From positions 14,998 to 78,997 of the forward strand of contig NZ_JABXYX010000004.1 of assembly GCF_017982655.1 (NCBI RefSeq): a stretch of 64,000 nucleotides of DNA, read 5' to 3'. Positions 16,602 through 64,000 of the stretch are shown piece after piece. The notes under the pieces are model-generated. The model saw only the letters and a list, made by a program, of their open reading frames with translations. It was not told where the DNA came from and searched no databases. Within the stretch, counting starts at the first letter, position 1. Each line of letters opens with the position of its first letter. Source of the DNA: Brasilonema sp. CT11 (GTDB lineage Bacteria; Cyanobacteriota; Cyanobacteriia; Cyanobacteriales; Nostocaceae). The translations under genes were made by a program, and so were the position numbers.

Positions 16602-16633
16602 CTCTGGTTATCGTAACGTTACGATAACCAGAG
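16602..16633. repeat. Palindrome copy 1 (GTAACGTTAC family), perfect 32 bp
   Basis: Leftmost copy of the family and a perfect dyad: arms CTCTGGTTATC / GATAACCAGAG around GTAACGTTAC. It lies between the 66-codon ORF and the stop of the - strand gene at 16638. Confidence 0.95.
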
Positions 16634-16637
16634 GAAT

Positions 16638-17198
16638 TCAAGAATTAGCTCTAACAAACTTGTAAGTAAAAGCCAGTGAAGCCTGGTAAGAAGTAACACT
16701 TGTCCCAATCCTGTTGACAATAAAAAGCACTTGGTTAGGGTTGGTTACGTACTGATAAATATTATTGCTCACTCTTTTATAGTTACCGATGCCAGTGCCG
16801 TTGGCATCTCCAGTATCTAGCGTGGTAGCTGTCCCCGATGTATTTGTCCATTGCAGAGTAAACGTTAAGTAATTGCTGGAATTGCTGGTTCCTGCCCGTG
16901 GGGATAGCATAGCCACATAACTTTCTAGCCACAAAGTTGTAGTGCCAATAGGGAAAACTTTTGATATTTGTAGTGGGAAAGTTCCGGAGTTAGAGGGAAA
17001 AGCTATGTCAAAAGTGACAGGCTGCGATCGCCAAACATTAGCTCCCCCTCCATCAAACTCCCAAGGTTGGGGAGCGTAACTTGGCTCAAACCATAAGTCC
17101 TTGTCACCTGGGTTACTTGGCAAACTAGCGCCAATCGACAATCCTTTACCAGCAAATTTTTGGGTTTGCAAAGTTGAATTAACAAAATCTATCTTCAT
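16638..17198 (-). CDS. Hypothetical phage-associated protein, probably tail tip or fibre accessory
   Basis: 186 residues with no recognised domain. The composition is low in charge and rich in Thr, Ser, Asn and Gly (for example GTATTLDTGDANGTG), as in beta-rich tail appendage proteins. It starts 4 bp after the stop of the tail-fibre-like gene on the same strand, so the pair is probably co-transcribed. Both point away from the rest of the virion genes, as host-range cassettes sometimes do. Confidence 0.6.
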   Translation of the reverse strand: MKIDFVNSTLQTQKFAGKGLSIGASLPSNPGDKDLWFEPSYAPQPWEFDGGGANVWRSQPVTFDIAFPSNSGTFPLQISKVFPIGTTTLWLESYVAMLSPRAGTSNSSNYLTFTLQWTNTSGTATTLDTGDANGTGIGNYKRVSNNIYQYVTNPNQVLFIVNRIGTSVTSYQASLAFTYKFVRANS

Positions 17199-17201
17199 AG
17201 G

Positions 17202-18242
17202 TTAACCCGCAGCGACTAATGTCCACGTACCTGTTAAAGTTTGCCCAGCAAAATTAAACGTCATCGTATTTGCATTAACTGTGTTTGGCTGTATTAAGAT
17301 GCCATCGCCAGTATTGTCCCACACTGCCCATAATAATGGTTTGCGTCCTAAACCATGCGCCCATGTATAAACGCCACTGCTCAAGCTTGCGTTAGTGATG
17401 TCTTGAGTGACTATGCTTACTACTGCTTTTTCAGCACCAGCCAAGCCTGACATAAACTTTTGAGTTGTTTCACTCCAGTAAAGACGCGCAGCCGCCAACG
17501 TCCCACGATTAACTTCTATCCCTCCATCTTCTGTAGGGTTAGAACCTGTGTAGTTTGAGTTCAACCTGATAATGTTGTCAGCGATCTCTACTTGCTCAGA
17601 GTTGACAATAGTCTGTGTCCCTTGCACCGTAAGGTTATAGCAGATGATATCAGTGAGTCCAGTGTTAGCAAGGTTTCGCACTGCCATCGCACCAGACATA
17701 TCTACAAGGCGAAATCCTGTGCCCGTGTTATTGACCGCAAAGGATGCGCTACTAGTACCTGTGTCAGTGTTTTGAACGTGGAACCGAGAATCATTGCCTG
17801 CTGCCACTGTTGTACCAGTTGTTCCAACTGGCAATCTACCTACCGGAAAAGTTCCCGAAGTAATCTTTCCAGCATCTAGCGCAGGAATATCGGAGGTATC
17901 TAAAGATCTAAAAGTAGGAGCGCCAGTTCCACTACTGGGTGCTGCAAGTATCGTATTTTGAGATTGGTTCTTCCACGCGATCGCAACGGTTCCGTTAGTC
18001 GTTACTGGCGAACCGGACACATCAAACTCAGTCGATGGCGCGGTAACCGCTACGCTTGTCACTGTGCCTCCACCAGTGGCGATTGTTGCCCACTCAAGCG
18101 TGGTTGCTGAACTTGCTCTTAATACTTGCCCAGACGTAGGTGCAGAAGTTGGTGCGGTTAAATCTATATTCTGGGTAAGACCAACTGCGCGAATAATGAG
18201 CGAGTATGCGCCACTCAATATCTGAACGATTGCCTGTTTCAC
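17202..18242 (-). CDS. Tail-fibre-like protein
   Basis: 346 residues. The middle reads PALDAGKITSGTFPVGRLP and TTVAAGNDSRF, a motif pattern typical of phage side-tail fibres and collar/fibre repeats. The remainder is Thr/Ser/Gly-rich beta-structure, ending with a WAHGLGRKPLLWAVW segment like those in fibre tips. It is transcribed away from the portal operon; palindrome copy 2 separates the divergent starts. A receptor-binding role is inferred from composition and location. Confidence 0.75.
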   Translation of the reverse strand: MKQAIVQILSGAYSLIIRAVGLTQNIDLTAPTSAPTSGQVLRASSATTLEWATIATGGGTVTSVAVTAPSTEFDVSGSPVTTNGTVAIAWKNQSQNTILAAPSSGTGAPTFRSLDTSDIPALDAGKITSGTFPVGRLPVGTTGTTVAAGNDSRFHVQNTDTGTSSASFAVNNTGTGFRLVDMSGAMAVRNLANTGLTDIICYNLTVQGTQTIVNSEQVEIADNIIRLNSNYTGSNPTEDGGIEVNRGTLAAARLYWSETTQKFMSGLAGAEKAVVSIVTQDITNASLSSGVYTWAHGLGRKPLLWAVWDNTGDGILIQPNTVNANTMTFNFAGQTLTGTWTLVAAG

Positions 18243-18288
18243 AAGGTAATCCTCTACAATACGCTTATATTATTATCTATTGCTTTTG

Positions 18289-18310
18289 GTTATGGTAACT
18301 TTACGATAAC
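18289..18310. repeat. Palindrome copy 2
   Basis: GGTTATGGTAACTTTACGAT with AAC following; imperfect dyad. It lies between divergent genes and ends 11 bp before the ATG at 18322, with an ACAAGG ribosome site in between. Confidence 0.9.
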
Positions 18311-18321
18311 GAGAACAAGGT

Positions 18322-20712: not shown

Positions 20713-21038
20713 AACGGACTGAGATTAAGCATCTGATGAAGTTTTGAAGTCTAAAATCACCGAGATTACTGCGGTTATAAAAATGTTAAGGACAATGGTC
20801 GTACACAACCTAAGAAGACCGGGATCATAGACAGTATCAACAAATAAAATCTAATCAACTAATAGTAACTAAGAAAAAATAGCCGTGTCTTATTTCAATC
20901 ATAGTAGTTGAAACACTTCATTTATCCTAACAATAGTTTAGACAGTACTCTTTGAGTCAAAGTAAAATCACGCTTGGTTTTGGGTACATTCGGGTACAAT
21001 TCTCTGCTAACCTACTGTTATCCGACTTAAAAATTACT
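20713..21038. other. Spacer upstream of the partition locus
   Basis: AT-rich and with no gene I can support; an in-frame TTG at 20952 would extend the ParM-like protein but has no ribosome site. It contains two GGGTACA hexamer-type boxes exactly 10 bp apart (20982-20988 and 20992-20998), listed separately. Confidence 0.5.
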
Positions 21039-21114
21039 TATAATCTAGATGGGGTAAAACTTATGACGAATTCTAAGACCACTGACACAACCGCAAATGT
21101 ACCCAAAAGTACCC
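20982..21114. promoter_or_regulatory. Partition-locus control region: promoter and paired GGGTAC/GTACCC boxes
   Basis: GGGTACA is repeated at a 10-bp interval (20982, 20992). TGTACCC / AGTACCC are repeated in the opposite orientation, about 10-11 bp apart (21098, 21108), inside the first codons of the ParM-like gene. Between them lie a consensus -10 TATAAT (21039-21044) and a GGGG ribosome site 9 bp before ATG 21063. The helical phasing suggests paired protein binding, for example by the partner encoded at 22145, as both operator and centromere. That role is inferred. Confidence 0.5.
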
Positions 21115-22145
21115 AGAAAATAGAGGGAGTAAAAACACCTAAAATTCCAGCGAAAAATAAGAAGCAGTTCAAGTCGGTGACTGACTTGGGTAATCATTGG
21201 ATTAAGGCTTATGTCGAAGGTTACGAACTTATAAGGGAACCAAGCTGGTATGCTCGCTGCTTATCCAACACTTCCAATAAATTACCTGGTCACATCCGTT
21301 ATGTCAATGGGGTGAGGACTGACCTAATCAATCAGTGCTGGCTAGTAGGAAATCAAGCTGTCCGCAGTGGTAGCAGTGACCTGATGAGATTGGTAGAAGA
21401 TTACATGGGCAAGTCATCTCTGTGGCTTGAGTACTTTCTTGGTACTTTAGCTCATCTACCACAGATTAACCCAGAAATGAATCTAGAAGTTACGGTAACT
21501 ACCAATGATGTTAAACGTCACTCAGGAATTATCAGGAAGAATGAAGGGACCCACAAGGTAGAATTGTGTGGCGTCCCATGTGGTGTAACTATTACCATTA
21601 AAGCAATCTTACCCGAAGGATTTGCAGCGCTTAAAAGCCAGAAGCTAGACGGTGCGGTGACCATCTGTGATATTGGTGGTGGTAATACGTCTATCAGTCG
21701 ATTCTTTAACTCGGAACCAGTAGGAGAAGTTGCAGTTAAGGATTTTGGCGCTGAATACTTGATTGAGAAAATTGCTTGTAACTCTGACCTCAAAGCACTC
21801 ATCAAGCAAGCACCTAGTAAGGATGTCATCAACCGCAGTATTGAGATAGGAGTGAAGTTCAAAAAGTCGGAAGCTGGCGATAAGATACCATTTCTGGCTT
21901 ATGGTGAATCAGATCTCAATTTTTACAAGGTCTATGAGTTCGAGCTACAGGACTTTATTAATTGCAGACTTAGAGAAGTCATCAAGCAGTTAGAACAGTA
22001 CAAGCTTGGTGGCGACCAAATCCTGATAATTGGAGGTGGTTCTAAGCTTCCACTGCTGAATGCTGCACTAAAGAAGAAAGGATTCTTGATTTCTGCCAAT
22101 GGTGCTTTTGATAACCTCATGGGACTGATAGCGGAGGTTGGGTAA
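21063..22145 (+). CDS. parM: ParM/StbA-type actin-like partition ATPase
   Basis: 360 residues from ATG 21063. Actin-fold signatures are visible: phosphate-2 loop CDIGGGNTSI (~202-211), adenosine motif IIGGGSKLPLL (~326) and a terminal FDNLMGLI segment as in plasmid ParM/Alp proteins. A disordered Thr/Lys-rich leader precedes the fold. The phosphate-1 region reads VTDLGNHWIKAY, close to the expected DxGxxxxK. ParM filaments push plasmid copies apart via an adaptor bound to the centromere. The next gene overlaps its stop by one base and encodes a small protein in the adaptor position. Finding it inside a virion gene block points to extrachromosomal maintenance. Confidence 0.85.
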   Translation: MTNSKTTDTTANVPKSTQKIEGVKTPKIPAKNKKQFKSVTDLGNHWIKAYVEGYELIREPSWYARCLSNTSNKLPGHIRYVNGVRTDLINQCWLVGNQAVRSGSSDLMRLVEDYMGKSSLWLEYFLGTLAHLPQINPEMNLEVTVTTNDVKRHSGIIRKNEGTHKVELCGVPCGVTITIKAILPEGFAALKSQKLDGAVTICDIGGGNTSISRFFNSEPVGEVAVKDFGAEYLIEKIACNSDLKALIKQAPSKDVINRSIEIGVKFKKSEAGDKIPFLAYGESDLNFYKVYEFELQDFINCRLREVIKQLEQYKLGGDQILIIGGGSKLPLLNAALKKKGFLISANGAFDNLMGLIAEVG

Positions 22146-22408
22146 TGACAGCTGATAAAATCAGGATTAAAAAGTATCAAAAGCCCAAAGTACAACAATG
22201 GTGTGAAGCGCTCTTAGTTAGTGAGAGTCGGTTTGTAGAGGACGCAATAGGGTTTTATCTGCGGTATTTAGAAGGAAACTACTCTGTTGTACCTGAAATA
22301 TCAACAACAGCGCCTGCAAGCTTAAATGGTCATCAAGAACAACTCATTAAACCTGCGTTGATAGAAACAGACGATCCTGAAGAATTTGACGGTGGAATAG
22401 AGCTTTAA
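22145..22408 (+). CDS. Small ParM partner, probable ParR-like DNA-binding adaptor
   Basis: 87 residues. The ATG overlaps the ParM stop (TAATG). The basic N-terminus (KIRIKKYQKPKVQQWCEALL), with a helix continuing SESRFVEDAIGFYLRY, resembles a ribbon-helix-helix-like DNA-binding unit. The C-terminal half is acidic and flexible, the usual arrangement for an adaptor that caps ParM filaments. Assignment rests on operon position and this pattern. Confidence 0.6.
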   Translation: MTADKIRIKKYQKPKVQQWCEALLVSESRFVEDAIGFYLRYLEGNYSVVPEISTTAPASLNGHQEQLIKPALIETDDPEEFDGGIEL

Positions 22409-24105: not shown

Positions 24106-24133
24106 CCCGTTAACGTAAAGTTACGGTAACGGG
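24106..24133. repeat. Palindrome copy 3
   Basis: Arms CCCGTTAAC / GGTAACGGG around GTAAAGTTAC. It fills the gap between the methyltransferase stop (24137) and the start of the head gene (24103) on the - strand. Confidence 0.9.
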
Positions 24134-25430: not shown

Positions 25431-25492
25431 TTCATTTCCTTCCCATCACTTTATGCCTCTAATATGACATAAGGGGCATATTATGTCAAGTT

Positions 25493-25520
25493 CTGGTTAT
25501 AGTAAAGTTACGATAACCGG
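25493..25520. repeat. Palindrome copy 4
   Basis: Arms CTGGTTATA / CGATAACCGG around GTAAAGTTAC. It lies 33 bp upstream of the scaffold gene start and between divergent transcription units. Confidence 0.9.
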
Positions 25521-26192: not shown

Positions 26193-26220
26193 CTCGTTAT
26201 CGTAACGTTACAGTAACGAG
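26193..26220. repeat. Palindrome copy 5
   Basis: CTCGTTAT / AGTAACGAG arms around CGTAACGTTAC; begins at the base after the scaffold stop codon. Confidence 0.9.
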
Positions 26221-28826: not shown

Positions 28827-29185
28827 TGCCATTAACAACCATCGCTACTGCAATTGATGCTTTTGTCAAAATCCCCGCTGTTGCCCAGCTTTACGAAGAT
28901 TCAGACCTCGCTCATGTAGAAAATATTCTCGTTTCTACAGCAGGCACCTTAAAGCAAGGAGGAGTAGGATATCGCATCTATGCTGCTGCCAAAGCTTACC
29001 TAGGTACGCATCCTGAACTTAGATTTGTAGAAGTTCATGATGGAACCAAGATTGGCAATATTGATGCGCTATTAAAATCTTTTGACGCTTTACAAGCTCA
29101 GGAAGACAACAATCTCTTTACAAAAACCGCTTTTCGCGTGACACCATTTATAACAACTAGTGTACGCAAATTCGCTGAGCCATGA
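28826..29185 (+). CDS. Hypothetical head-tail adaptor-like protein
   Basis: 119 residues, starting in the preceding stop (TGATG) and overlapping the next gene by ATGA. Helical N-terminus (IATAIDAFVKIPAVAQLYE) and a compact C-terminus. Position directly after the capsid genes suggests a connector. Confidence 0.5.
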   Translation: MPLTTIATAIDAFVKIPAVAQLYEDSDLAHVENILVSTAGTLKQGGVGYRIYAAAKAYLGTHPELRFVEVHDGTKIGNIDALLKSFDALQAQEDNNLFTKTAFRVTPFITTSVRKFAEP

Positions 29186-29580
29186 GAAAAATACTGGGGT
29201 CTAGAAAAGTTTTCGAGCACGCCACCATCACCTTTGGGATAATCGAACCCACATGTGATTTGGACGAGCGTGGTAACTTTGCTCAAAAGAAAACCACAAT
29301 AACCTTGGTGGCGCAGATAGATCGCAGTGGCACCAGCACTGGCAAGCAAGGAGATACTGAAGCTTACGCTACCAGTGAGCGCTTGATGAGCGGGCATTTG
29401 GTACAACCAACTAAAATACCATCAGGCTTAGTCCCAGGCATTATTGGTCGGATTGAATTTCCAGATGGAGAGATTAATAATTGTCGCTTGTTACCGTCTT
29501 CTCAGATTTCATGGAAGATAATCAAATGCGATCGCATTAACTTATCCGTTGGTGCTGGTGCCATAGCTCGTCAATCTTAA
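29182..29580 (+). CDS. Hypothetical head-tail joining protein
   Basis: 132 residues, ATGA overlap with the previous gene. It contains VFEHATITFGIIEPTC and a beta-rich middle with TSERLMSGHLVQPTKIP. No family assigned; placed among connectors by order. Followed directly by palindrome copy 6. Confidence 0.5.
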   Translation: MRKILGSRKVFEHATITFGIIEPTCDLDERGNFAQKKTTITLVAQIDRSGTSTGKQGDTEAYATSERLMSGHLVQPTKIPSGLVPGIIGRIEFPDGEINNCRLLPSSQISWKIIKCDRINLSVGAGAIARQS

Positions 29581-29582
29581 CT

Positions 29583-29608
29583 CCCGTTACCGTAACGTTA
29601 CGTTAACC
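29583..29608. repeat. Palindrome copy 6
   Basis: CCCGTTAC / GTTAACC arms around CGTAACGTTAC, filling the 29-bp gap between one stop and the next ATG (29610) with no separate ribosome site visible. Confidence 0.9.
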
Positions 29609-29609
29609 A

Positions 29610-30038
29610 ATGGCTGCAACTTTTACTGTCAAAATAAACGAAAAAAACCTGGGGAATTTCCGAGGGTTGCCGGATCAGATAAGGAATATGCGCAAGCCCA
29701 TGCAAAATGCTCTTGCTTATCTGGAAGCGGAAACCAAGAAACAGTTTGTATCTGAAACTGACCCAGAAGGTCGTGCGTGGGCAAGTTTAAAACCCAGCAC
29801 TTTGGCAAGGAAGAAAAGTGGAGCTATTGGGAGAGAAACGAGTGCGATGATTAACTCTATCTTTACCAGGCTAACGGGAGATTTACAAGGAGAAATTGGT
29901 TTAAGCGTTGAGTATGCACTTTACTTCAGCGAAGGTACAAAGAAAATGGCAGCGCGTCCAATCCTGGGATTTAATAATACTAGAGAAGCAAAAGTGATGT
30001 CACTTTTTGAGATCTATATAGGAGATCTTGTGAGATGA
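29610..30038 (+). CDS. Tail completion / virion morphogenesis protein (Mu gpG-like)
   Basis: 142 residues. The DPEGRAWASLKPSTLARK segment (~51-68) and the C-terminal GEIGLSVEYALYFSEGT..RPILGF pattern match the phage virion morphogenesis (gpG/gpS) family, which completes the tail or head-tail joint. ATGA overlap with the next gene. Confidence 0.8.
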   Translation: MAATFTVKINEKNLGNFRGLPDQIRNMRKPMQNALAYLEAETKKQFVSETDPEGRAWASLKPSTLARKKSGAIGRETSAMINSIFTRLTGDLQGEIGLSVEYALYFSEGTKKMAARPILGFNNTREAKVMSLFEIYIGDLVR

Positions 30039-30577
30039 CGCAGTGCATAGGTGGAGATCCATCACCGGATAGAAACGAATATGCGGATATTGATAAGGCG
30101 ATTGCCGAAAGGTTGCAGCCACTAAGAGAGTATTTAGAAGGGGAAGACATTTTAGTCCGCGCTTTGCCGGATTTGGCGGCAGGGTTTAGCGATCGCACTG
30201 ATTCTGGCGACATCTACTTTGTCCTTTCCCAAGGCGAAGCTAACCGGGATGAGCGCACCAGAGTATTGCTTTCTGAGACTTGGCAAATCACCTTGGTAGT
30301 GATGCTTCCTAACCGTTACAGCAAGGCAGGAGTCTACGACGTTTTTAAGCGAGCCAGAAATCTTTTAGTGGGCTTTACTCCTCCTTATGCTCTCCAACCT
30401 ATCGGTGCACCAGATTGGCGATTTAATCGCGATCAAGCACACTGGGTGATAGAAGCTATCTTTCCTTTTGACGTTTGCATACTTGACACCTCTCCAGATG
30501 AGGAGGATGAACCCACAATTACTGAGTTAAGGATTCAAGGAATATCTTACACGGAGGTTGTAACCAGTGCGAATTAA
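30035..30577 (+). CDS. gp37-like (DUF1834-type) phage protein
   Basis: 180 residues. Position between a gpG-like protein and the tail sheath, and the pattern ILVRALPD..SDRTDSGDIYFVLSQGEANRDE with a closing FPFDVCILD, resemble Mu gp37-type tail terminator or adaptor proteins. It overlaps the gene before it (ATGA) and the small gene after it. Confidence 0.6.
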   Translation: MTQCIGGDPSPDRNEYADIDKAIAERLQPLREYLEGEDILVRALPDLAAGFSDRTDSGDIYFVLSQGEANRDERTRVLLSETWQITLVVMLPNRYSKAGVYDVFKRARNLLVGFTPPYALQPIGAPDWRFNRDQAHWVIEAIFPFDVCILDTSPDEEDEPTITELRIQGISYTEVVTSAN

Positions 30578-30728
30578 ATGGAAAGTCGAGACATATGCAA
30601 CAGTTGAAATTAATGGTGAGATGACTCAACTATTATTTGACGAGGAGTACGAAGTCCCAGAAGATTCTGAGTATTTCCAGGATGCGCTTACTAGGGGATG
30701 GGCTGTTGAAGTTAAGGAGAAAGAATAA
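30567..30728 (+). CDS. 53-residue protein between gp37-like and sheath genes
   Basis: GTG start 30567 behind CGGAGGTTG. The protein (RIKWKVETYATVEINGEMTQ, DEEYEVPEDSEYFQDALTRGWAVEV) has the size and place of short Mu gp38-type proteins, which precede the sheath gene in Mu-like phages. Its TAA overlaps the sheath ATG (TAATG), implying coupling. Confidence 0.7.
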   Translation: MRIKWKVETYATVEINGEMTQLLFDEEYEVPEDSEYFQDALTRGWAVEVKEKE

Positions 30729-31837
30729 TGGCGCTAACAAAAGGAGTCATCATTTACCCAGGCACTACAACGCCAATATTGTCCGGTAATAGCTTGCCTC
30801 TCGCCATAATAGGCACAGCAACCAATGCTACAGTTTCTAACAACACAATCCAAAAAGTGACAAGCGCAGCCGACGCCACTGCTAAATTTGGTGCACACGC
30901 GGCAGGGGATACTCTTCCCCGCAATTTAGACATACTGATACGTTACGGATGCAATAATATCTACGCTATCAAGGTTGCTGATGCCGCCAGTATTGTGGGG
31001 TCTGACACAACAGGCGCTCGCACGGGCATCTACCTCATCAAAGATATCCCATCTCTCTATAAGGATATCCCCAATTTCATCTTAGCCCCAGGACAAAACA
31101 CTGATGCGGTGGTTACTGCGGCGACCGCTGTGGCGGATGCAATTCGCTCGATTGCTGTCATTGACCCTACAGATGGGGATAGCATTGCCAACATTGTCAC
31201 AGCACGCGCTGGGAATACAGGCATCGGGCAGGATAAGGAACGCTTAATAATTACTTACCCCTACCTAAACAACGCAGTCACTCCAACTATCCATGAACCT
31301 CTGTCCACGCACTTAGCAGGTACTATGGCGAAAAATGGAGATTATGGTAAAACGGTATCATCACAACCGTTGCTCGGTATCTCCACGCTTAGTGTATCAT
31401 TGTCTATGAGTGTTACTGATGAGAACTCCGATACTAGCAAGTTACTGGGAGCAGGGGTGATTACAGTTATGAACGATGACAATATACCTGGTGGATTTGA
31501 AACTTGGGGCGATCGCAACTCCACATTCCCCAGTAGTTCAGACGTTCGTTCCTTTATCCACGCTATCCGCACAGAAGATGCAGTCATGCAGAAAGCAATA
31601 TTTCGTGCGCGGAAATTTATTGATTTACCTAGTAACTTAATGACAGCAAACATGGCGACATCCTCTTACGATGCCATGTTCTTTGAAATGGCAACTCAAA
31701 GTGGATTGCAGCGCGGTTCGGCGCAATGGGACAGCACTAACAGCAATATTCCTGCTGGTCGGCTAAAACACATCTTACAATTTCAACCCAACAACATGGT
31801 GGAAATTATGGAACTCGCTGTGAGCATAGGAGGTTAA
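30728..31837 (+). CDS. Contractile tail sheath protein
   Basis: 369 residues. Sheath-family marks: N-terminal GVIIYPGTTTPI, mid-protein AVIDPTDGDSIA and ITYPYL, and the C-terminal NVMNDDN-like plus WGDRNS / FRARKFID region. It is immediately followed by the tail tube gene, as in P2 and Mu. Its presence shows that the virion is, or was, a contractile-tailed (myovirus-type) particle. Confidence 0.88.
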   Translation: MALTKGVIIYPGTTTPILSGNSLPLAIIGTATNATVSNNTIQKVTSAADATAKFGAHAAGDTLPRNLDILIRYGCNNIYAIKVADAASIVGSDTTGARTGIYLIKDIPSLYKDIPNFILAPGQNTDAVVTAATAVADAIRSIAVIDPTDGDSIANIVTARAGNTGIGQDKERLIITYPYLNNAVTPTIHEPLSTHLAGTMAKNGDYGKTVSSQPLLGISTLSVSLSMSVTDENSDTSKLLGAGVITVMNDDNIPGGFETWGDRNSTFPSSSDVRSFIHAIRTEDAVMQKAIFRARKFIDLPSNLMTANMATSSYDAMFFEMATQSGLQRGSAQWDSTNSNIPAGRLKHILQFQPNNMVEIMELAVSIGG

Positions 31838-31839
31838 TT

Positions 31840-32373
31840 ATGGCATCACCATCAACTTATGAAACAAGAGGTCAGTGGGCATGGTCAATTATTGGTGGTA
31901 GCGGAACACCTGCTATAGCAACGGGGACAGCTTCAGAATTCACCATTGAAGGGTTAGAGCGCGAGGTTGACCAAGATAGGCGTCCTGGCGCAGGAGGGGC
32001 GCTAAGTTATGGCGGAGATTTTAACCCCATTACTGCAACGCTTAGTCTAATGAGCATTACCGATGGAGTTAGAAGCGCCGCGATGGAATCTGTGTGCTCA
32101 AATGCAACAATAAATGCATCTGCTGTCTTTCAAAATACAAGAGATGCATGCGATATTGGTACGTACTCCATATCTATGCGCGGTATCTTGATTAAGTACC
32201 CTATCGGTTGGAAGTTCAGTACAGATAAAGGGGAGGTGGAGTTAGTACTGGGTGTGAACTATTACACAGAAACATTTAAAGGTAAAACATTCACTTATAA
32301 CCCTGATGAAATGGAATGGATATGGAATGGCACAAACTTATGGGCAAATCGGAAGCTAGCTTTGGGGATGTAG
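31840..32373 (+). CDS. Tail tube protein
   Basis: 177 residues, starting 2 bp after the sheath stop. Place, size and the P2 FII-like layout (short strands; GTASEFTIEGLEREVDQDRR.. and GILIKYPIGWKF) support the tube that lies inside the sheath. Confidence 0.75.
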   Translation: MASPSTYETRGQWAWSIIGGSGTPAIATGTASEFTIEGLEREVDQDRRPGAGGALSYGGDFNPITATLSLMSITDGVRSAAMESVCSNATINASAVFQNTRDACDIGTYSISMRGILIKYPIGWKFSTDKGEVELVLGVNYYTETFKGKTFTYNPDEMEWIWNGTNLWANRKLALGM

Positions 32374-32413
32374 AAATTGTGTTGATTGCAATCTATCAGA
32401 ATTGAAAAAGCCT

Positions 32414-32472
32414 CGCGTTAAGCCATACTGCGTGTCTTCAGACTGCAATATGGCTTAATGCGATTCCTTTTT
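32414..32472 (+). terminator. Strong hairpin with T tract after the tail tube gene
   Basis: CGCGTTAAGCCATA pairs with TATGGCTTAATGCG (one mismatch) around a 21-base loop, followed by ATTCCTTTTT. It should stop or attenuate the highly expressed sheath-tube transcript. Confidence 0.7.
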
Positions 32473-32506
32473 GTAGCCAGTCTTTATAAGTAGTCATTGC
32501 CTCATC

Positions 32507-32528
32507 GTTATCGTAACGTTATGGTAAC
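32507..32528. repeat. Palindrome copy 7
   Basis: GTTATCGTAACGTTATGGTA followed by AC; one mismatch from a perfect dyad. It lies 44 bp before ATG 32573. Confidence 0.9.
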
Positions 32529-32572
32529 CAGAAATCAATTTATAATGACTGTAGTTGTTTGTATATAGTGAT

Positions 32573-33145
32573 ATGACTACTGAGGCGATCGCATCCACAA
32601 ACTCCGTTGTTCTTAGAGACGGTTCGCTCATTTTTACTGCTAAACCTTTGTGTGCATGGGCTTATTTCCTGTTTATTGAAAAATCACAGATGCCCGGAGA
32701 AACTGGCAATCCAAGAGCAATAGGTTCTAGATTAGCGCAGGCATGGTTGTTTAGCGAAGCCTACACACTAAATAGCGAACCACTTACTGAAATACAATTG
32801 AATATTCTTAGTTTGACAATGCGCGAAGCTAACAGATTGTTGGTTCCTTTAACAAGTATTTCTGTAACAATTGATATACTGGATGATGCGGATACATTAG
32901 CAGAGTCTACACACGTAAAGATTAAAGATCATGAGTATACGATGCTTTCAATTCCGTGGGAAGCGGCGGATAAGTGGTTAGCGGATGTTAGAGTTAGCGT
33001 TGCCCAAGCTTATAAGAATATGGCTAAGGGATATATTCGGCGTGATGGCGATTGCATTACTGATGACATGCTTAATAATCCTGAAATTTTAGGAATAGAG
33101 GAGGGCAAGCTCTTTTTTGAGTGGGTAAAGTATGCAGTGAACTAA
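32573..33145 (+). CDS. Tail assembly chaperone (first ORF, gpE/G position)
   Basis: 190 residues from ATG 32573 (an upstream TTG would add six). No strong family match, but it lies exactly between tail tube and tape measure, where contractile and lambda-like phages encode the tail assembly chaperone. Its end overlaps a second short frame by 25 bases in the -1 frame. Confidence 0.6.
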   Translation: MTTEAIASTNSVVLRDGSLIFTAKPLCAWAYFLFIEKSQMPGETGNPRAIGSRLAQAWLFSEAYTLNSEPLTEIQLNILSLTMREANRLLVPLTSISVTIDILDDADTLAESTHVKIKDHEYTMLSIPWEAADKWLADVRVSVAQAYKNMAKGYIRRDGDCITDDMLNNPEILGIEEGKLFFEWVKYAVN

Positions 33146-33312
33146 TACCTGAGCGGTTAACCATCTTGAGAGTGTGCAAGTACATGGGTTGGTCGCTAGT
33201 GGATTTACAATATTTTAAAGATTTGCATCATTTGAATGAGTGGCTTATTGAAATCATTAAAGAAATGAAGCGAGAGCAGCAAGAAATAAACAAGACTAAA
33301 AATCGCCTTTAA
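33121..33312 (+). CDS. Tail assembly chaperone extension (E'/T-like), possibly reached by frameshift
   Basis: 63 codons in the -1 frame relative to the preceding gene, opening with GTG 33121. The CKYMGWSLVDLQYFKDLHHLNEW pattern resembles the short C-terminal parts of chaperone frameshift products. No consensus slippery heptamer lies in the 25-base window where a -1 shift is possible (C-TTT-TTT at 33112 is followed at once by TGA in the -1 frame). Independent translation from GTG, or from the ATG in YMGW, is therefore an alternative. Confidence 0.55.
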   Translation: MGKVCSELIPERLTILRVCKYMGWSLVDLQYFKDLHHLNEWLIEIIKEMKREQQEINKTKNRL

Positions 33313-33625
33313 GCCCTCTATTTTCTTAAAAATGATGAATTATACCATCATGTATATTAAAAGCTTTTAAAAAAGATTTTCGCGGCGCTGGCAGGGTAAA
33401 TAGTCTTTAAGAATGATTGTGACTTTTTAAAATATCCCTTTTTTAAATTAGAACGTAGTTAATAATTGTGGTTTACGTTCTTTATCTTTTGTTTTTCTTT
33501 TTTCTTTTTTTAACTTTTAACAGACTATTCTTCAAAAAATTTCGCGTGCGTTCTTATGTGTGTATTTTCTGTTTGTTTTTTTTTGAATGTTTTCTCTGAA
33601 TATAGTAGAGCGGGGGAATCAACAC
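33313..33625. other. Low-complexity T-rich spacer before the tape measure gene
   Basis: Strongly T-rich on the + strand with long T runs (33480-33520, 33580-33590). No gene on either strand. The early TTAAAAGCTTTTAA (33357-33370) is a perfect palindrome. The spacer is unusually long for a virion operon and ends in the tandem repeats listed next. Confidence 0.6.
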
Positions 33626-33710
33626 TTCCGTAAATTAGAAATCCTCATTTACGTGAATTAGGATTCCCTGTTTACGTAAATGAGGAATCCTCCGTTACGT
33701 AAATGAGGGG
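33626..33710 (+). promoter_or_regulatory. Four tandem ~23-bp repeats directly upstream of the tape measure gene
   Basis: Units begin at 33626, 33648, 33671 and 33695, spaced 22, 23 and 24 bp. The consensus is near TTTACGTAAATGAGGAATCC. TTTACGTAAA within the unit is itself a palindrome. The last unit runs into GAGGGG, which serves as ribosome site for ATG 33720. Phasing of about two helical turns suggests a regulator-binding array or translational control element. Confidence 0.6.
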
Positions 33711-33719
33711 TTGGGCAAA

Positions 33720-36071: not shown

Positions 36072-36072
36072 T

Positions 36073-37104: not shown

Positions 37105-37106
37105 CT

Positions 37107-37130
37107 GGTTATCGTAACGTTACGGTAACC
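37107..37130. repeat. Palindrome copy 8
   Basis: GGTTATCGTAACGTTACGGT then AACC, two bases after the hub gene stop and 20 bp before the next ATG. Confidence 0.92.
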
Positions 37131-37150
37131 ATTAAAATGAGTGCAGAACT

Positions 37151-37543: not shown

Positions 37544-37563
37544 GGGAAGTGTAAACAAAAACT

Positions 37564-37881
37564 ATGGATGTATCAACGCAGAAACTATTACAAGCTCTGG
37601 AAGCAAAGAACGACCCCAAGCTAGCACCCATAATAACTAGAGCAAAAGCCAACTACTACCATGATTACAAATCAGATCTTATGGCTCCTATTGTCACTTT
37701 GGTCGCGGATTTGCGTGGTGCGGGGCATGAAGATTTAGCACAGAGAGCTGTTGATGGAGAGTTCGACTCAACCAAAGAAGAATCGGACGCATGGGCAAAA
37801 AGCAGCGAAGAGAAAGCAGTATTTGCTGAACTACTGGGTTCTAGGAAGAAGCGTCTTAAACCGCGAGGATTTGGTAACTAG
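37564..37881 (+). CDS. Hypothetical protein after the tail genes
   Basis: 105 residues, helical and charged, ending KKRLKPRGFGN. No domain recognised. A second frame (37882-38029, another phase) continues with protein-like sequence (DAVTDSDRTIDPKTLKDHPG) up to palindrome copy 9, so a frameshift near 37870 is possible. Confidence 0.5.
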   Translation: MDVSTQKLLQALEAKNDPKLAPIITRAKANYYHDYKSDLMAPIVTLVADLRGAGHEDLAQRAVDGEFDSTKEESDAWAKSSEEKAVFAELLGSRKKRLKPRGFGN

Positions 37882-38004: not shown

Positions 38005-38040
38005 AGCCTTGGTTACCGTAACGTTATGATAACCAAGGCT
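38005..38040. repeat. Palindrome copy 9, longest arms
   Basis: AGCCTTGGTTAC / ATAACCAAGGCT arms around CGTAACGTTA. The whole 36 bp folds with a single C-A type mismatch. It lies between convergent gene ends (37881 + and 38060 -). Confidence 0.93.
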
Positions 38041-44694: not shown

Positions 44695-44750
44695 CTGTTT
44701 TTCCTTGGCTATATGCCAATAATGTCATTTAGTAAATCAAAAGTCAAGTT

Positions 44751-44776
44751 GGTTATCGTAACTTTACGATAACGAG
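44751..44776. repeat. Palindrome copy 10
   Basis: GGTTATCGTAACTTTACGAT then AACGAG. It lies 2 bp past the stop of the 74-residue gene and 57 bp upstream of the next gene on the - strand. Confidence 0.92.
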
Positions 44777-45028: not shown

Positions 45029-45073
45029 TTTAGTATGATTAAAAAGTCATACTAAAGTTAGCGAGGTTGTGCC
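45029..45073 (-). promoter_or_regulatory. Promoter cassette of the 74-residue gene
   Basis: Reading the - strand: GGCACAA (45067-45073), then a 10-bp inverted repeat TTTAGTATGA / TCATACTAAA (45029-45056), then the ribosome site. The same order (palindrome, GGCACAA, CATACTATAA) recurs before two other - strand genes (starts 49700 and 51019), which suggests a shared promoter or operator type. Confidence 0.55.
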
Positions 45074-45090: not shown

Positions 45091-45120
45091 CCTGGTTATC
45101 GTAACTTTACGATAACCAGG
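45091..45120. repeat. Palindrome copy 11, perfect arms
   Basis: CCTGGTTATC / GATAACCAGG arms around GTAACTTTAC; the 30 bp differ from a perfect dyad only at the centre. It sits between the truncated gene ending at 45155 and the 74-residue gene. Confidence 0.93.
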
Positions 45121-49733: not shown

Positions 49734-49776
49734 ATAGTATGACTTAATAGACATATAAAATCTATGTAGATTGTGC
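49734..49776 (-). promoter_or_regulatory. Promoter cassette upstream of the gene start at 49700
   Basis: On the - strand: GGCACAAT near 49770, then GTCATACTATAA (49734-49745), then ribosome site AAGGAG and ATG 49700. It matches the cassettes at 45.03 kb and 51.05 kb, so the promoter was left behind when the IS605-type element landed at the start of the gene. Confidence 0.5.
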
Positions 49777-49796: not shown

Positions 49797-49820
49797 GGTT
49801 ATAGTAACGTTACGGTAACC
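49797..49820. repeat. Palindrome copy 12
   Basis: GGTTATAGTAACGTTACGGT then AACC; between the stop of the 81-residue gene (49842) and the promoter of the IS-interrupted gene. Confidence 0.92.
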
Positions 49821-51044: not shown

Positions 51045-51096
51045 TCTATATTTATAGTATGCCCAAATAATCACATTGTTACTGTAATCCTTGTGC
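51045..51096 (-). promoter_or_regulatory. Promoter cassette of the amidoligase unit
   Basis: On the - strand: GGCACAAGG (near 51090-51096), then GGGCATACTATAAATA (51047-51062), ribosome site and ATG 51019. Third occurrence of the palindrome, GGCACAA, CATACTATAA order. Confidence 0.5.
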
Positions 51097-51120: not shown

Positions 51121-51144
51121 GGTTATGGTAACGTTACGGTAACC
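51121..51144. repeat. Palindrome copy 13
   Basis: GGTTATGGTAACGTTACGGT then AACC, upstream of the amidoligase promoter and downstream of the gene ending at 51201. Confidence 0.92.
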
Positions 51145-52195: not shown

Positions 52196-52223
52196 CTCGT
52201 TACCGTAACGTTACGGTAACGAG
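52196..52223. repeat. Palindrome copy 14, perfect
   Basis: CTCGTTACC / GGTAACGAG around GTAACGTTAC; perfect 28-bp dyad, ending at the leader of the GIY-YIG gene (ATG 52167). GCACAA follows it directly on the - strand. Confidence 0.95.
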
Positions 52224-56226: not shown

Positions 56227-56489
56227 GGCATGTTCCTGATAATGTACTGAGTGGTGGTGTTTTGAGGACTGGAACGGTTGATCAAAGCGATCGCCCCAGC
56301 CCAACTCAAATAAATCACCAACCCTGCGCCACTAAATCCCAAAAGTGCGATAATGACTTCCTTAAGTCCTGATGAAGGAATTTCATCGCGGTAATGACGA
56401 ACTATCTTATAGCGATCTCCATCCTGGCTAACAAAATGGTTGGTAACATAGACATCGGTTCTATCAACCGTCCGTCTAGTCTTGGTCAT
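56223..56489 (-). CDS. Small single-pass membrane protein
   Basis: 88 residues. A charged N-terminal half (RTVDRTDVYVTNHFV..YKIVRHYRDE), then one long hydrophobic segment (~45-70, VIIALLGFSGAGLVIYLSW). ATGA overlaps at both ends. Probably part of a membrane complex with the ATPase and the 80-residue protein. Confidence 0.6.
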   Translation of the reverse strand: MTKTRRTVDRTDVYVTNHFVSQDGDRYKIVRHYRDEIPSSGLKEVIIALLGFSGAGLVIYLSWAGAIALINRSSPQNTTTQYIIRNMP

Positions 56490-56683
56490 CGCTTCCCTCC
56501 GGTTACCGTAACTTTACGATAACGGTGAAACTTTAATGCATTTAGTTCTTGAGTCGTAAGCTTGGTTGTTCTTTTGATAGGTTTTTGCCTGCGGCGAGGG
56601 AACTTCTCAAACAAAACAACGGCAACACTACTAATTGAACTAAATTTCAAGTCTTGCATTGCTTGCTCTACAGTCATTTTCAT
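56486..56683 (-). CDS. Small basic hypothetical protein, palindrome within its 3' end
   Basis: 65 residues from ATG 56683. VEQAMQDLKFSSISSVAVVLFEKFPRRRQ then a basic tail. Its last 13 codons (HRYRKVTVTGGKR) are encoded by palindrome copy 15, so the repeat has been recruited as coding sequence. ATGA overlap with the next gene. Confidence 0.55.
   Translation of the reverse strand: MKMTVEQAMQDLKFSSISSVAVVLFEKFPRRRQKPIKRTTKLTTQELNALKFHRYRKVTVTGGKR
56501..56525. repeat. Palindrome copy 15, inside a reading frame
   Basis: GGTTACCGTAACTTTACGAT then AACGG. It lies in the last codons of the gene ending at 56486 and 12 bp before the next start (56489, behind GGAGGG). Confidence 0.9.
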
Positions 56684-56685
56684 GA

Positions 56686-56967
56686 TTAATAAATAGCTCC
56701 TATTGTTTTTTCTAAAGCCCAATTAACTGCGTCTAATGGGGCAAAAACAAAAGTGTTGAGAACAAAATAAACGCTTTTGGTAAACATGGCTTTTTCCTCT
56801 TTGATGAATGTTTTTGCAATATCTCTGATAGCTTTTTTCCCGTCTGGAAGATTGCGCAAGGAATTAATCGCTTCCATGATTTCTTCTTCTGTTAGTTCCA
56901 TGATTCGCTGGCTAAGACTTTCTGTCATAGGACTTGGTTTCATCCGTGCTAAAATCTCAGCCAACAA
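56686..56967 (-). CDS. Small hypothetical protein
   Basis: 93 residues from TTG 56967; ATG 56943 (MKPSPMTES) is an alternative and more ordinary start. The middle is helical (RIMELTEEEIMEAINSLRNLP) and the C-terminus weakly hydrophobic (VYFVLNTFVFAPLDAVNWAL). Family unknown. Confidence 0.5.
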   Translation of the reverse strand: MLAEILARMKPSPMTESLSQRIMELTEEEIMEAINSLRNLPDGKKAIRDIAKTFIKEEKAMFTKSVYFVLNTFVFAPLDAVNWALEKTIGAIY

Positions 56968-56972
56968 ACCAG

Positions 56973-57542
56973 CTAGATGGAAGCGAGTGTCTGTGTCAAA
57001 AAAACGTTAGCATCCTCCAGTGCTTTTTTAGCAGTGGTAGATGCGGCGGTCGCTGTCTGCATCCGGTTGCTAATGCCAACTTGACGTTCCATAGCTTGTT
57101 TTTTGATTGCATCGTTTGCTTGGCTTGTGCGCTCATTGCTTGCGTTCAATCGAGATTTAAGGTAACCTTCCCAGATTTTTGACTTTGTGCTTTCGTAAGT
57201 TTCAATCTGTGCCAAGCTGTGCATTACCGCAGTGGTAACCACATCTTTCATGTCGATATTCCCTAAAGCTTCAATCAAAGCATATTGAGTCGCTTCTGAA
57301 TTAATCATCATCTGAGCAATGCTTGCGCCAGTGCCGTCTGCGGAAATCAAAGCGCCTGCCGATGGCATAGTGCTTGCTGCTTTGTATTCATCAACGTTTT
57401 CCATAAAAAGTTGAACCAAAGTGTCGGGCACTGGCGTATTTGCTTTCCAGTTCACATCTGGCGCTTTATCGGTCAAGACAGTGATCATTTCAGCGACTGA
57501 AACGCCTGCATAGTCTGCCAAATCTTTAACGTTAAAGCTCAT
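56973..57542 (-). CDS. Hypothetical helical protein
   Basis: 189 residues. The start overlaps the preceding gene's stop (ATGA). The opening FNVKDLADYAGVSVAEMITVL resembles a short helix-turn-helix. The rest is long Ala/Thr-rich helices (SNRMQTATAASTTAKKALEDA). It might be a structural or scaffold component of the operon. Confidence 0.55.
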   Translation of the reverse strand: MSFNVKDLADYAGVSVAEMITVLTDKAPDVNWKANTPVPDTLVQLFMENVDEYKAASTMPSAGALISADGTGASIAQMMINSEATQYALIEALGNIDMKDVVTTAVMHSLAQIETYESTKSKIWEGYLKSRLNASNERTSQANDAIKKQAMERQVGISNRMQTATAASTTAKKALEDANVFLTQTLASI

Positions 57543-57925
57543 CCTACTTTCTCCTGAATAATATTGTAAAGTACGTCAAATCTTGCTTTTGAATACCACT
57601 TCGCGGTGAATTCTCCGGTAATGTAAGCGCGGGTTCTATCGGCAGATCGCACGCGCTTCATTGTTTCTTGTATCCTACTGACAAACCAGATTTGATATGG
57701 GCTTAATGGCGCTTGCCGATCAAAAGCACCTTCTTTATCTCTAGGTGTGTCATTTCTAAAACTAGGACTAGATCGCCATGCGAGATCGCACCAAGCGACA
57801 ACACTAGTCCGAGAGCAATTTAGCAAAGCTGCTAATTCTTTTTTAGTCAGCGAGTAATCACAGTAAATTGATAAAGCATCTAATTCCTCGCCTAAAGTTA
57901 AAATCTTGAGCTTAGTTGCTGCCAC
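57539..57925 (-). CDS. Helix-turn-helix protein, first gene of the operon
   Basis: 128 residues, GTG start 57925. SLTKKELAALLNCSRTSVVAW (~25-45) is a clear helix-turn-helix of the terminase-small-subunit or plasmid-regulator kind. A basic C-terminus follows. As first gene behind the divergent promoter region it may autoregulate the operon. A small terminase role is possible but no large subunit is seen. Confidence 0.6.
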   Translation of the reverse strand: MAATKLKILTLGEELDALSIYCDYSLTKKELAALLNCSRTSVVAWCDLAWRSSPSFRNDTPRDKEGAFDRQAPLSPYQIWFVSRIQETMKRVRSADRTRAYITGEFTAKWYSKARFDVLYNIIQEKVG

Positions 57926-58673: not shown

Positions 58674-58697
58674 CGTTACGGTAACGTTACGGTAACC
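58674..58697. repeat. Palindrome copy 16, supplying a stop codon
   Basis: CGTTACGGTAACGTTACGGT then AACC. Read on the - strand, it encodes the last residues of the gene below and its TAA stop. Confidence 0.9.
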
Positions 58698-58866
58698 GAG
58701 GGCTATTTTTTTCTGAGTGAGCAAATTCCTTATAAGTGATCCGAATGGATTCACGAACAAGATCCGTAATGCTGCGCCCAGTTTTTTCGCTGACAGCAGC
58801 AAGAAGTTCCATCTCAATTTTTGCTAAATTGATTGTGAGTCGTTTACTAACCCATTGCTTTGACAT
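58687..58866 (-). CDS. Ribbon-helix-helix (CopG/Arc-type) regulator
   Basis: 59 residues from ATG 58866. KQWVSKRLTINLAKIEMELL.. (strand then helix), TGRSITDLVRESIR (second helix) is a textbook ribbon-helix-helix. The C-terminal codons and stop lie in palindrome copy 16. Its ATG overlaps the end of the upstream frame. It might bind the palindromes, but nothing in the sequence shows this directly. Confidence 0.72.
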   Translation of the reverse strand: MSKQWVSKRLTINLAKIEMELLAAVSEKTGRSITDLVRESIRITYKEFAHSEKNSPRLP

Positions 58867-62165: not shown

Positions 62166-62175
62166 GTTTCCCCTT

Positions 62176-62199
62176 GGTTACCGTAAAGTTACGGTAACC
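62176..62199. repeat. Palindrome copy 17
   Basis: GGTTACCGTAAAGTTACGGT then AACC; perfect outside the centre. Only 10 bp from the helicase start. Confidence 0.93.
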
Positions 62200-62214
62200 A
62201 TAAAGTACGTCTAA

Positions 62215-62263
62215 TTATTCGTGAGTTAAAGCAATCAAGTGCTTTGCAAATGCAGCTCCTACC
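62215..62263 (-). pseudogene. 3' fragment of a small gene split by the IS4 insertion
   Basis: ..VGAAFAKHLIALTHE and a stop at 62215-62217. It joins in frame through the 9-bp duplication GCTCCTACC to the fragment at 63660-63868. Confidence 0.82.
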
Positions 62264-63668
62264 CATTGGTGACAACTTAAGAAAAAGGTAAGCTTGTCAA
62301 CAGGTGCATCAAGGGAAAAAAGGATGGGAAATCCAAGAGTCGGAAACCCAGACCACAAGCGGGATAGAAACATGCCAGCGCCAGAAAACGAAGTGATCGC
62401 GGCGCGGATGGAGGAGCTATTAACACCACTGGTATACAATCAACTGTCGTATTACCAGCAGTTGGGACTACGCGACCGGATTCTAGGTTTACCTCTAATG
62501 GTGGCAGCAGTATTAACACTACTGTGGCGACAAGTACCATCGGTGCGCGAGTTACATCGGTTATTAAATCGAGAAGACAAATTGATTGTGCAAAGCGGCT
62601 TGCGTATCGCAACAAGCATTGTCTAAGCGATTTCTAGAGTTTCCAGCATCGATATTTGAACAAGTAATGATGGAATTAATTCCCAAGTTACAAGCAAGAT
62701 GGATTCTAAGAAAAAACCGCCCACTACCTGCAAGTATTAGGTTTGCGAAAACCAAATTCAAACGAATCTGGGCTGTGGATGGTTCAACACTAGAAGCACT
62801 TTTTCGTCACCTGCAGAGCCTGCAAGAAAAAGCTGTTTCTTTAGCTGGGAAAATTTACGCAATCGTTGATATCACAACTTATTTACCCGTCAAAATTACT
62901 TTTGATGAGAATCCAAATTGTTCAGATGCAACAATGTGGGATTGGTTGCGTGGTTGTACACCCGATGGAACTTTACTTATTTTTGACAGGGGTTTTTATG
63001 ATTTTACTGAGTTTGCCGCACTCATGACAACTGGTGTTGCTTGGATTACTCGTTTAAAGAAAGCAAGCTATCGTGTACAAAGAACTCTAACCCATACTCC
63101 ACAAGTCGTTGACCAAATAATTGAATTGGGACACAAGCGAGGGCGAGCAAAGCCAATTATTGTTCGTTTGGTCGAAATTAGACGTGAGAATACTTGGTAT
63201 AGATACATTACTTCTGTTACCAATCCAGTAGACTTACCTCCTTACCTTGTCGCTGACCTTTACGGTCGTCGGTGGCACATCGAAACTGCTTTTGGTCTAG
63301 TTAAACGATTGTTGAAAATGTCATATTTGTGGACTGGCTCGATTAATGGTGTCAAGTTGCAAATTTGGGCAACGTGGCTATTTTATGCTGTTTTAATTGA
63401 TCTGGCTGATACAGTTGCTAACGAATTCGATATCGAAGCTGAAAAAATTTCGATTGAGATGTTGTTTCGCTCATTTTATCATTTTAATCACGCCTATAAT
63501 CGAGGATTTTCACACGACCTTATTGCTTATCTTACTTCTCCCAACAATCGAGATTTGGGAGTTGTTAAATATCAACCCAAATCTCAACAGCGAGACACTT
63601 TGGACTTATCTCCACACCCCACTTGACATTTTGGCGATCGCTTTAAGTTGTCACCAATGGCTCCTACC
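62255..63668. mobile_element. IS4-family element with 9-bp target duplication
   Basis: GCTCCTACC at 62255-62263 and 63660-63668 flanks an element with perfect 17-bp inverted ends (CATTGGTGACAACTTAA, 62264 and 63659). 1396 bp long, with one transposase coding region in two overlapping frames. Confidence 0.88.
62294..63626 (+). pseudogene. IS4-family transposase, frameshifted
   Basis: Frame A (62294-62626) carries the N-terminal part (MPAPENEVIAARMEELL..PSVRELHRLLNRED). Frame B (from ~62586) carries the rest (VSQQALSKRFLEFPA, AVDGSTLEAL, LIFDRGFYDF, RRWHIETAFGLVKRLLKM), covering DDE and the Y-(2)-R-(3)-E-(6)-K pattern. The shift, +1 near 62585-62595, most likely inactivates the gene. Programmed frameshifting cannot be excluded, but I see no classic slip site. 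Confidence 0.82.
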
Positions 63669-63868
63669 TCAGCACGATACTTTTTTCCACTTGCCATAGT
63701 AATGAGCAAGAAAGTTTCATCTTGGTCTTCATAAGAGGAGCCACATTTATTGCCTGGTAACTGGCAAATGGAGCAGATCATATCAAGATTAACCGTTAAA
63801 TTTTTACTAATTTTGTACAGTTGCATTCGCTCTCTTTTGTTAAGTATGCCCAAATTGTCACTTTTCAT
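63660..63868 (-). pseudogene. 5' fragment of the small gene split by the IS4 insertion
   Basis: From ATG 63868 (a TTG four codons earlier is possible). It contains a zinc-like pair CSICQLPGNKC and ..ASGKKYRAEVGA at the junction. Rejoined with 62215-62263 it would encode ~82 residues. The pair CxxC..C hints at a small zinc protein. Bracketed by palindrome copies 17 and 18 in the ancestral order. Confidence 0.82.
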
Positions 63869-63981
63869 AAAGAATGTCAACCATCTATTGACGTTTTCTC
63901 TTTGCGGTGTTTCTATTAAATGTGTGTGCGGCTATTAGTCTACAAAAAGTATATTGATAGGCTGTCACATGCATCTTTTCT

Positions 63982-64000
63982 GGTTATCGTAAAATTACGC
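63982..64000. repeat. Palindrome copy 18, cut by the window edge
   Basis: GGTTATCGTAAAATTACG and one further base; the right arm is outside the window. It shows that the palindrome-bearing element continues to the right. Confidence 0.8.

Follow-up and report, generated by a model that had tools for sequence, protein, structure and literature searches.

Dispersed 24-bp palindromes of a Brasilonema phage element as putative operators in a family of phage-plasmids

The phage element and its palindromes

The stretch of DNA analyzed here (64,000 nucleotides, hereafter the window) comes from Brasilonema sp. CT11 and corresponds to positions 14,998-78,997 of a 143,243-bp contig (NZ_JABXYX010000004.1, C351) in an 8.79-Mb assembly that is 96% complete. 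It holds part of a contractile-tailed phage, referred to below as the element, which carries a dispersed palindrome and extends beyond the window, its sites spanning C351:31,604-88,631. PHROG matches in the element include tail sheath, tape measure and connector proteins, the terminase small and large subunits, a major-head-like and a minor head protein, a ParB-domain methyltransferase, a helicase and a partition-like (ParM) protein; the ParM-like gene lies with a small partner at 20952-22408, the partner having by eye the look of a ribbon-helix-helix (RHH) protein.

An alignment of the 18 places listed in a preliminary description of the window gave a 24-bp site with the consensus SGTTAYNGTAAM joined to KTTACNRTAACS, built of two tandem 11-bp pseudo-palindromes (half-palindromes) of the form GTTAYNRTAAC. 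All 18 places hold the palindrome, with the exact 24-bp starts shifted by 0-6 bp (e.g., 16606, 38011 and 45094, not 16602, 38005 and 45091); 17 copies are complete in the window, and one is cut at the window end and complete in the contig. The whole element displays 24 copies at no more than 2 mismatches, 6 of them beyond those of the window, up to contig position 88631. A scan of the 24-mer allowing 5 mismatches gave no match before 16606, in agreement with the described absence from the first 16.6 kb.

The copies, numbered along the window and listed without strand, occupy several contexts. Copy 1 (16606..16629) is a perfect palindrome; copy 2 (18288..18311) lies 10 bp ahead of the ATG at 18322; copy 3 (24108..24131) lies between MuF-like and C5-methylase genes; copy 4 (25495..25518) is about 5 bp from a TTGACA hexamer in a promoter-like stretch on the minus strand, which also contains a palindrome of a second type (site 2, below); copy 5 (26195..26218) stands 2 bp past a stop codon; and copy 6 (29585..29608) fills the gap between the stop at 29580 and the ATG at 29610, a gap that also has a site in the Scytonema relative introduced below. 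Copies 7 (32506..32529) and 8 (37107..37130) are followed by copy 9 (38011..38034), which lies between convergent genes and whose hairpin is extended by its flanks, and then by copies 10 (44751..44774), 11 (45094..45117), 12 (49797..49820), 13 (51121..51144) and 14 (52198..52221). Copy 15 (56501..56524) is 11 bp ahead of the minus-strand open reading frame (ORF) start at 56489 and within a dubious ORF of 78 amino acids with a TTG start (56486-56722); copy 16 (58674..58697) overlaps the 3' end of an RHH gene and is followed by a plus-strand T-run; copy 17 (62176..62199) lies 10 bp ahead of a minus-strand helicase gene; and copy 18 (63982..64000) is the one cut at the window end, with six more beyond.

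Placement was assessed against a hand-picked gene set covering 81.2% of the element, from which ORF 56486-56722 was kept out as unlikely. All 24 sites lie less than 50% inside these genes (p about 4e-18), with partial overlap for copy 16 (45%), the site at 69462 (23%) and copy 18 (18%), and none for the others; the between-gene placement reported earlier is upheld, the exception being copy 15 inside the left-out ORF. Sites stand 2-12 bp ahead of a start codon (including 18322, 24103, 29610, 56489 and 62165, whose closeness had been correctly noted), 3-10 bp past a stop codon (2 bp for copy 5), or both at once in operons, and further sites lie upstream of promoters or between convergent genes. 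The suggestion that the palindromes would be found in mRNA leaders is right for some copies, but not for those just past stops, upstream of promoters, in operons or between convergent genes.

In an assembly-wide scan at up to 2 mismatches, every match was one of the element's 24, and none lay elsewhere in the 8.79 Mb; four further places appeared at 3 mismatches, the reversed-pattern control giving 9 forward matches at up to 3. A similar density on the host chromosome, which the preliminary description had set against its own proposal, was not encountered at up to 2 mismatches, nor was the spread over the host genome that characterizes repetitive extragenic palindromic (REP) elements. In a draw of 388 genomes from the order (B. 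angustatum not among them), 70 held at least one match at up to 2 mismatches and none held more than 3, the window's own excepted; the reversed-pattern control also yielded stray matches in many of these genomes. The palindrome is not a host repeat, since its matches are confined to the element in its own assembly and reach at most 3 per other genome of the draw. Exact matches in other phyla were set aside, since most were GTTACNGTAAC repeated in tandem or sites occurring singly. A separate dispersed palindrome was observed in the 3.3-Mb genome of the Halobacteriales archaeon QS_8_69_26 (G004), with 86 matches at up to 2 mismatches (e.g., C7:3186-3207), mostly of the GTTACAGTAA..TTACTGTAAC form among the matches listed. 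Further, contigs L021, L023, L046, L050 and L052 (two Lactobacillus by title) have in common a TTACAGTAA-rich stretch with a single pattern match.

Sites in related elements and a second palindrome

A sister phage in Brasilonema angustatum displays a counterpart by position for 23 of the 24 sites, 22 of which were aligned confidently; the site comparison left out copy 9 at 38011, which has no orthologue and is found some 30 bp away from a breakpoint relative to the sister phage, and copy 11 at 45094, whose flanks are too diverged. The letters of the half-sites are under selection: across the 22 orthologous sites, fixed positions had changed in 1 of 352 cases and the flanks in 145 of 2608 (Fisher p 2e-7). 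Free positions had changed in 10 of 132, and the fixed class having been set from among-site variation, the contrast between fixed and free positions is partly built in, whereas that with the flanks is not.

A near version of the site was found in Spirirestis rafaelensis, where one 43.6-kb contig with little protein relation to the Brasilonema phage carries 15 sites of the form AGTTACCGTAACGTTACGGTAACT at up to 4 mismatches (12 at up to 2), and the genome as a whole holds 15 at up to 2. Low-copy relatives of the site occur in Calothrix, G027, G406, G298 and G011, none of which has in common with both the Brasilonema and the Spirirestis element a protein that would point to a binder. A tentative third family by spelling was noted on G327:C75, with 12 matrix matches (0 in the reversed control), of which 5 are intergenic, including the top four, and 7 lie inside ORFs.

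The closest named complete relative found is AP018265.1, the circular 76,644-bp plasmid2 of Scytonema sp. NIES-4073, with 31 reciprocal orthologues in the Brasilonema element under our own cut-off (32 before one shadow ORF was dropped), and because of this relative we call the putative family phage-plasmids. No match to the Brasilonema pattern was found in AP018265 within 4 mismatches. A de novo palindrome search, refined, returned 28 members of CGTYARRGAAAN joined to NTTTCYYTRACG (CG TYARRGAAAN joined to NTTTCYYTRA CG), a site that by our own comparison is also 24 bp long and has the skeleton xGTYAnnGwAAn in common with the Brasilonema site. These sites are mainly intergenic (25 of 28, in a plasmid that is 86.8% coding), are missing from 22.5-39.8 kb (a nonribosomal peptide synthetase, NRPS, block) and 57.5-68.7 kb (a second cargo block), and have an asymmetric centre, GA/TC, that divides 5 to 5 between minus-strand genes. 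A viral contig near AP018265 (protein identity often 93-98%) holds 9 sites of the Scytonema type at up to 2 mismatches. As for the NRPS-like DNA, that at 29165-38227 of AP018265 is cargo within the phage-plasmid, without palindromes there, and NRPS-like DNA also adjoins the phage in our window (1-11.3 kb, by similarity to Scytonema NRPS).

The palindrome is re-spelled in this related phage-plasmid, and whole site sets have been re-spelled together between related elements. Considering the 62 ends of the 31 orthologues, a site lies within 150 bp in both genomes at 15 ends, in Brasilonema only at 4, in Scytonema only at 9 and in neither at 34 (p 2e-5); the 15 doubly sited ends represent 12 distinct Brasilonema sites, and the ends are not fully independent. 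The view that the palindrome is the signature of one element is supported, but has to be widened to the sister phage of B. angustatum, the near version on the Spirirestis contig, and the re-spelled version in the Scytonema phage-plasmid and the viral contig.

Site 2 is an 18-bp palindrome of the ATGCCCAAATGGGCAT type, several copies of which lie between TTGACA-like and TATAAT-like hexamers. Minus-strand copies in the window are located at 25463..25480 (in the promoter-like stretch by copy 4), 44712..44729, 45034..45051, 49738..49755, 51058..51075 and 63845..63862, the last one 120 bp from copy 18. A matrix trained on 11 own copies only gave 18 matches in the element (reversed control, 2) and 19 in the Scytonema plasmid (reversed control, 3). 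Of the 14 own intergenic copies, ten have a 24-bp site no more than 50 bp away against 12% expected, a figure biased by seeds partly picked near the 24-bp palindromes, and two of these ten score low. The Scytonema figure, 7 of 11 intergenic copies within 50 bp against 16% expected (p 4e-4), is free of seed bias.

Other differences from the sister phage were observed. A group II intron with a reverse transcriptase and an HNH domain (window 45.4-49.7 kb) and an insertion of about 4.1 kb with a DDE transposase (DUF4277; 38.6-42.7 kb) are not in the sister phage, about 1.4 kb at 62263-63660 has no counterpart there and shows an 8-9-bp overlap at its ends, like a recent insertion, and a 393-bp segment near the tail-sheath gene start (30780-31172) is inverted in the B. 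angustatum phage. In addition, a 23-bp unit is repeated in tandem (4.1 copies) at 33615-33708, directly ahead of the tape-measure gene.

Candidate binding proteins and proposed function

The favoured candidate binder is a putative ParB-like protein encoded at contig positions 84872-87127. It is shared with the Scytonema plasmid, matches a PHROG ParB family (E 2.7e-4) and displays by eye a GxRR motif and a helix-turn-helix (HTH); its PDB ParB matches are weak (E 0.35-0.78), and no Pfam or NCBIfam ParB match was found. The sister phage has exactly the same HTH and Scytonema a different one (one unrelated protein, picked up by length, was ignored in the alignment), a difference that fits the change of site but proves nothing. 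Three RHH-type proteins, recognized by eye and by weak matches, are common to the Brasilonema element and the Scytonema plasmid, and the supposed DNA-contacting strand looks alike in both. One of the two proteins to which the preliminary description had pointed, an RHH-type protein of 59 amino acids on the minus strand (58687..58866) with a homologue in the Scytonema plasmid, is still a possible binder; its family is common (7 of the 7 genomes searched, our own included), and it was discarded as a unique marker. The other, an HTH-type protein of 128 amino acids (57539..57925, minus strand), is also on the Spirirestis contig, being one of two proteins that blastp finds with good coverage in both, and is disfavoured: 16 of the 388 genomes (our own included) carry it, the stretches (up to 20 kb) at 18 of its 19 other matches have no palindrome at up to 3 mismatches, and blastp gave no homologue in the Scytonema plasmid. 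The ParM partner was likewise rejected, no ParM homologue being found there by blastp. Sequence searches of Pfam, PHROG, NCBIfam and PDB were uninformative for the majority of the small DNA-binding candidates.

Judging from sequence, we put a probability of roughly 0.57 on the palindromes being dispersed operators of a phage-encoded silencing protein in a phage-plasmid family, possibly with a part in partition as well. Each 24-bp site, with its two tandem pseudo-palindromes, would be suited to two cooperating dimers. The predicted binder would occupy many intergenic gaps, so that promoters and read-through are blocked and the lysogenic element stays silent, and it may also help to condense or partition the element. 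A co-regulator perhaps acts at site 2, the second and smaller promoter-type palindrome, which at about eight to ten places has a 24-bp site within 50 bp, as in the KorA/KorB pair of RK2. One element-encoded protein would read each site set; sets that are differently spelled, built alike and often placed alike are as expected if each element has its own gap-binding protein.

Several observations weigh against dispersed silencing operators. If the comparison is restricted to ends where each genome has a gap of 12 bp or more, the gene-end counts become 15, 1, 8 and 6 (p 0.025); much of the gene-end agreement is the filling of shared gaps, some of which the sites themselves create. In the phage part of the Scytonema plasmid, 7 of 10 site-2 copies cluster with 24-bp sites, with p only 0.011 for a distance of 50 bp and 0.096 for one of 130 bp, and the choice of some of the matrix seeds near palindromes biases the Brasilonema figure. 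The Spirirestis genome gave no match to the ParB-like profile despite its 15 sites, no protein common to all three element types was found by blastp in the contigs compared, and a single-sequence AlphaFold model of the ParB-like core reached a predicted local distance difference test (pLDDT) score of 39.7, a fold that was not used. Two relatives with about 40% identity in the terminase large subunit, G280:C650 (47.9 kb) and G207:C301 (50.0 kb), showed no such palindrome family in their first 40 kb. Finally, controlling a promoter would be of little use at those sites that separate convergent genes.

A more specific version, which we hold as a tentative possibility, is a KorA/KorB-like two-operator system in which a ParB-family clamp at about 25 gap palindromes would both silence and segregate the element; if true, concerted re-tuning of the operator set would create separate immunity or incompatibility groups. 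Alternatively, the palindromes might form a distributed centromere, to which a ParB-like or RHH partner of ParA/ParM would bind for segregation or compaction, transcription not being the point. Placement of the palindromes regardless of orientation or context, and the circular plasmid relative, would suit such a role, as would the element's own ParM-like gene with its small partner, the ParA and RHH-like partner (by eye) of Spirirestis with four sites 0.3-1.7 kb upstream, and the finding of no iteron cluster near the ParM-like genes. A search for iterons near par or RHH genes gave none that was convincing. However, the Scytonema plasmid, lacking a ParM homologue by blastp, has an annotated parA, so that the partition system changes while the build of the site stays, and the palindromes often adjoin promoter-type operators; we consider a pure centromere unlikely.

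An RNA-level role, the palindrome acting within mRNA as a terminator, attenuator or processing hairpin, was among the roles first proposed and is improbable as a general one. Such a palindrome could fold, a T-run of at least 5 lies just downstream on 6 of 48 strands (12.5%, compared with 5.4% for intergenic positions drawn at random), and the flanks of the Spirirestis sites pair above chance (45 of 105 against 32.1, p 0.01, one overlapping match left out of the covariation test); because of these two results, a few of the copies may also serve as terminators or sit in terminator-like hairpins. Inside the sites of Brasilonema and Scytonema, however, compensatory pairing of the arms was not found, and the two halves vary independently. 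In the Brasilonema sites 65 of 96 pairs match at inner positions against 63.7 expected, with 15 of 24 against 12.7 for the outer base and 68 of 168 against 60.4 (p 0.10) for the outer flanks; in those of Scytonema 82 of 168 pairs match where 88.6 are expected, and leaving out the centre pair, which is complementary in 1 of 28, gives 81 of 140 where about 78 are expected. Moreover, the orthologue of copy 8 changes T..G to C..A, a swap that breaks the RNA pair (U.G to C.A), 42 of the 48 strands have no T-run, and the sole Rfam match at gathering score in the window was a group II intron, hit by two models. With the fixed letters conserved relative to the flanks and the halves varying independently, the best reading is that a protein recognizes the DNA, rather than that the RNA forms a hairpin.

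It is equally improbable that these are activator sites or sites for the phage late-gene transcription machinery: for ten site-2 palindromes the distance to a 24-bp site is 13-48 bp, and several of these are located upstream of a promoter-like stretch, but other sites are in operons, past stop codons or between convergent genes. Least probable are mobile or selfish repeats (REP-like or resembling miniature inverted-repeat transposable elements) multiplied in the element, or the cassette boundaries for gene shuffling proposed earlier, since high copy number, intergenic palindromes and the unshared copy near a sister-phage breakpoint are set against positional counterparts for 23 of 24 sites (22 aligned with their orthologues), no copies elsewhere in the genome, and a wholesale re-spelling in Scytonema, often at corresponding gene ends, 15 of the 19 sited Brasilonema ends being sited there too.

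Read as putative silencing operators, the palindromes offer an operator network that is defined and open to testing, and for which nature supplies a comparison, that of two related elements whose site sets are spelled differently and built, and often placed, alike. This raises the question of how the specificity of a regulator can shift in step with that of some 25 sites, and whether the silencing and the inheritance of a phage-plasmid depend on a single set of sites.

Comparison with known systems

Cluster A mycobacteriophages such as L5 and Bxb1, which are temperate, have more than 20 and as many as about 30 short sites for the repressor, named stoperators, many of them in short gaps between genes, whose motifs differ among related phages with cognate repressors (PMC9283540, PMC6550527). 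The palindromes resemble them in being numerous along a phage genome and largely intergenic (24 of 24 here), and repressor binding of this kind fits best among the three roles of the preliminary description, but stoperators are described as 13 bp long, asymmetric, bound by monomers and oriented with transcription, whereas ours are 24-bp near-palindromes with no direction seen. Phage P1, which is kept as a plasmid, has 22 dispersed operators of its C1 repressor (PMC8546580). The sites of our element are dispersed too, but the C1 operator is 17 bp long and asymmetric, unlike a 24-bp palindrome of other letters.

The O_B operators of KorB are dispersed and palindromic. In RK2, the operators of KorB, a protein of the ParB family, lie 4-10 bp or 45 to more than 1000 bp upstream of promoters and act together with another operator of small size (PMC11790492). 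The Brasilonema element and AP018265 likewise each carry many putative operators, and both have a second promoter-type operator near the first, as indicated by the seed-biased 10 of 14 copies in Brasilonema and the unbiased Scytonema figure; O_B is 16 bp long against 24 bp here, the binder here is a candidate only, and no KorA-like protein was identified in our element.

Other dispersed repeats are known from mycobacteriophages. In Cluster O (Corndog), a 17-bp palindrome, TGTTCGGNNNCCGAACA, is present in 34 copies, many of them intergenic and with no function assigned (PMC4351075); this is the nearest pure description found, although about a third of these repeats lie in coding regions and the phage is not obviously temperate. 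The start-associated sequences of Cluster K (SAS/ESAS) are repeats upstream of start codons across the phage genome (PMC3203893), 13 bp long and tied to those codons, whereas starts are one context among several for our sites. No description of a network like the present one was found for cyanobacterial phages and their palindromic operators, Nostocales phage-plasmids, Nostoc palindromic repeats or the core sequences, in a search that left subscription journals mostly outside. Because the asymmetry and direction of stoperators are not seen and the binder is a candidate only, we do not file the palindromes as stoperators, C1 operators or KorB O_B; by analogy, they appear to work like all three, the C1 operators of P1, the stoperators of Cluster A and the O_B sites of KorB, while being assigned to none of them.

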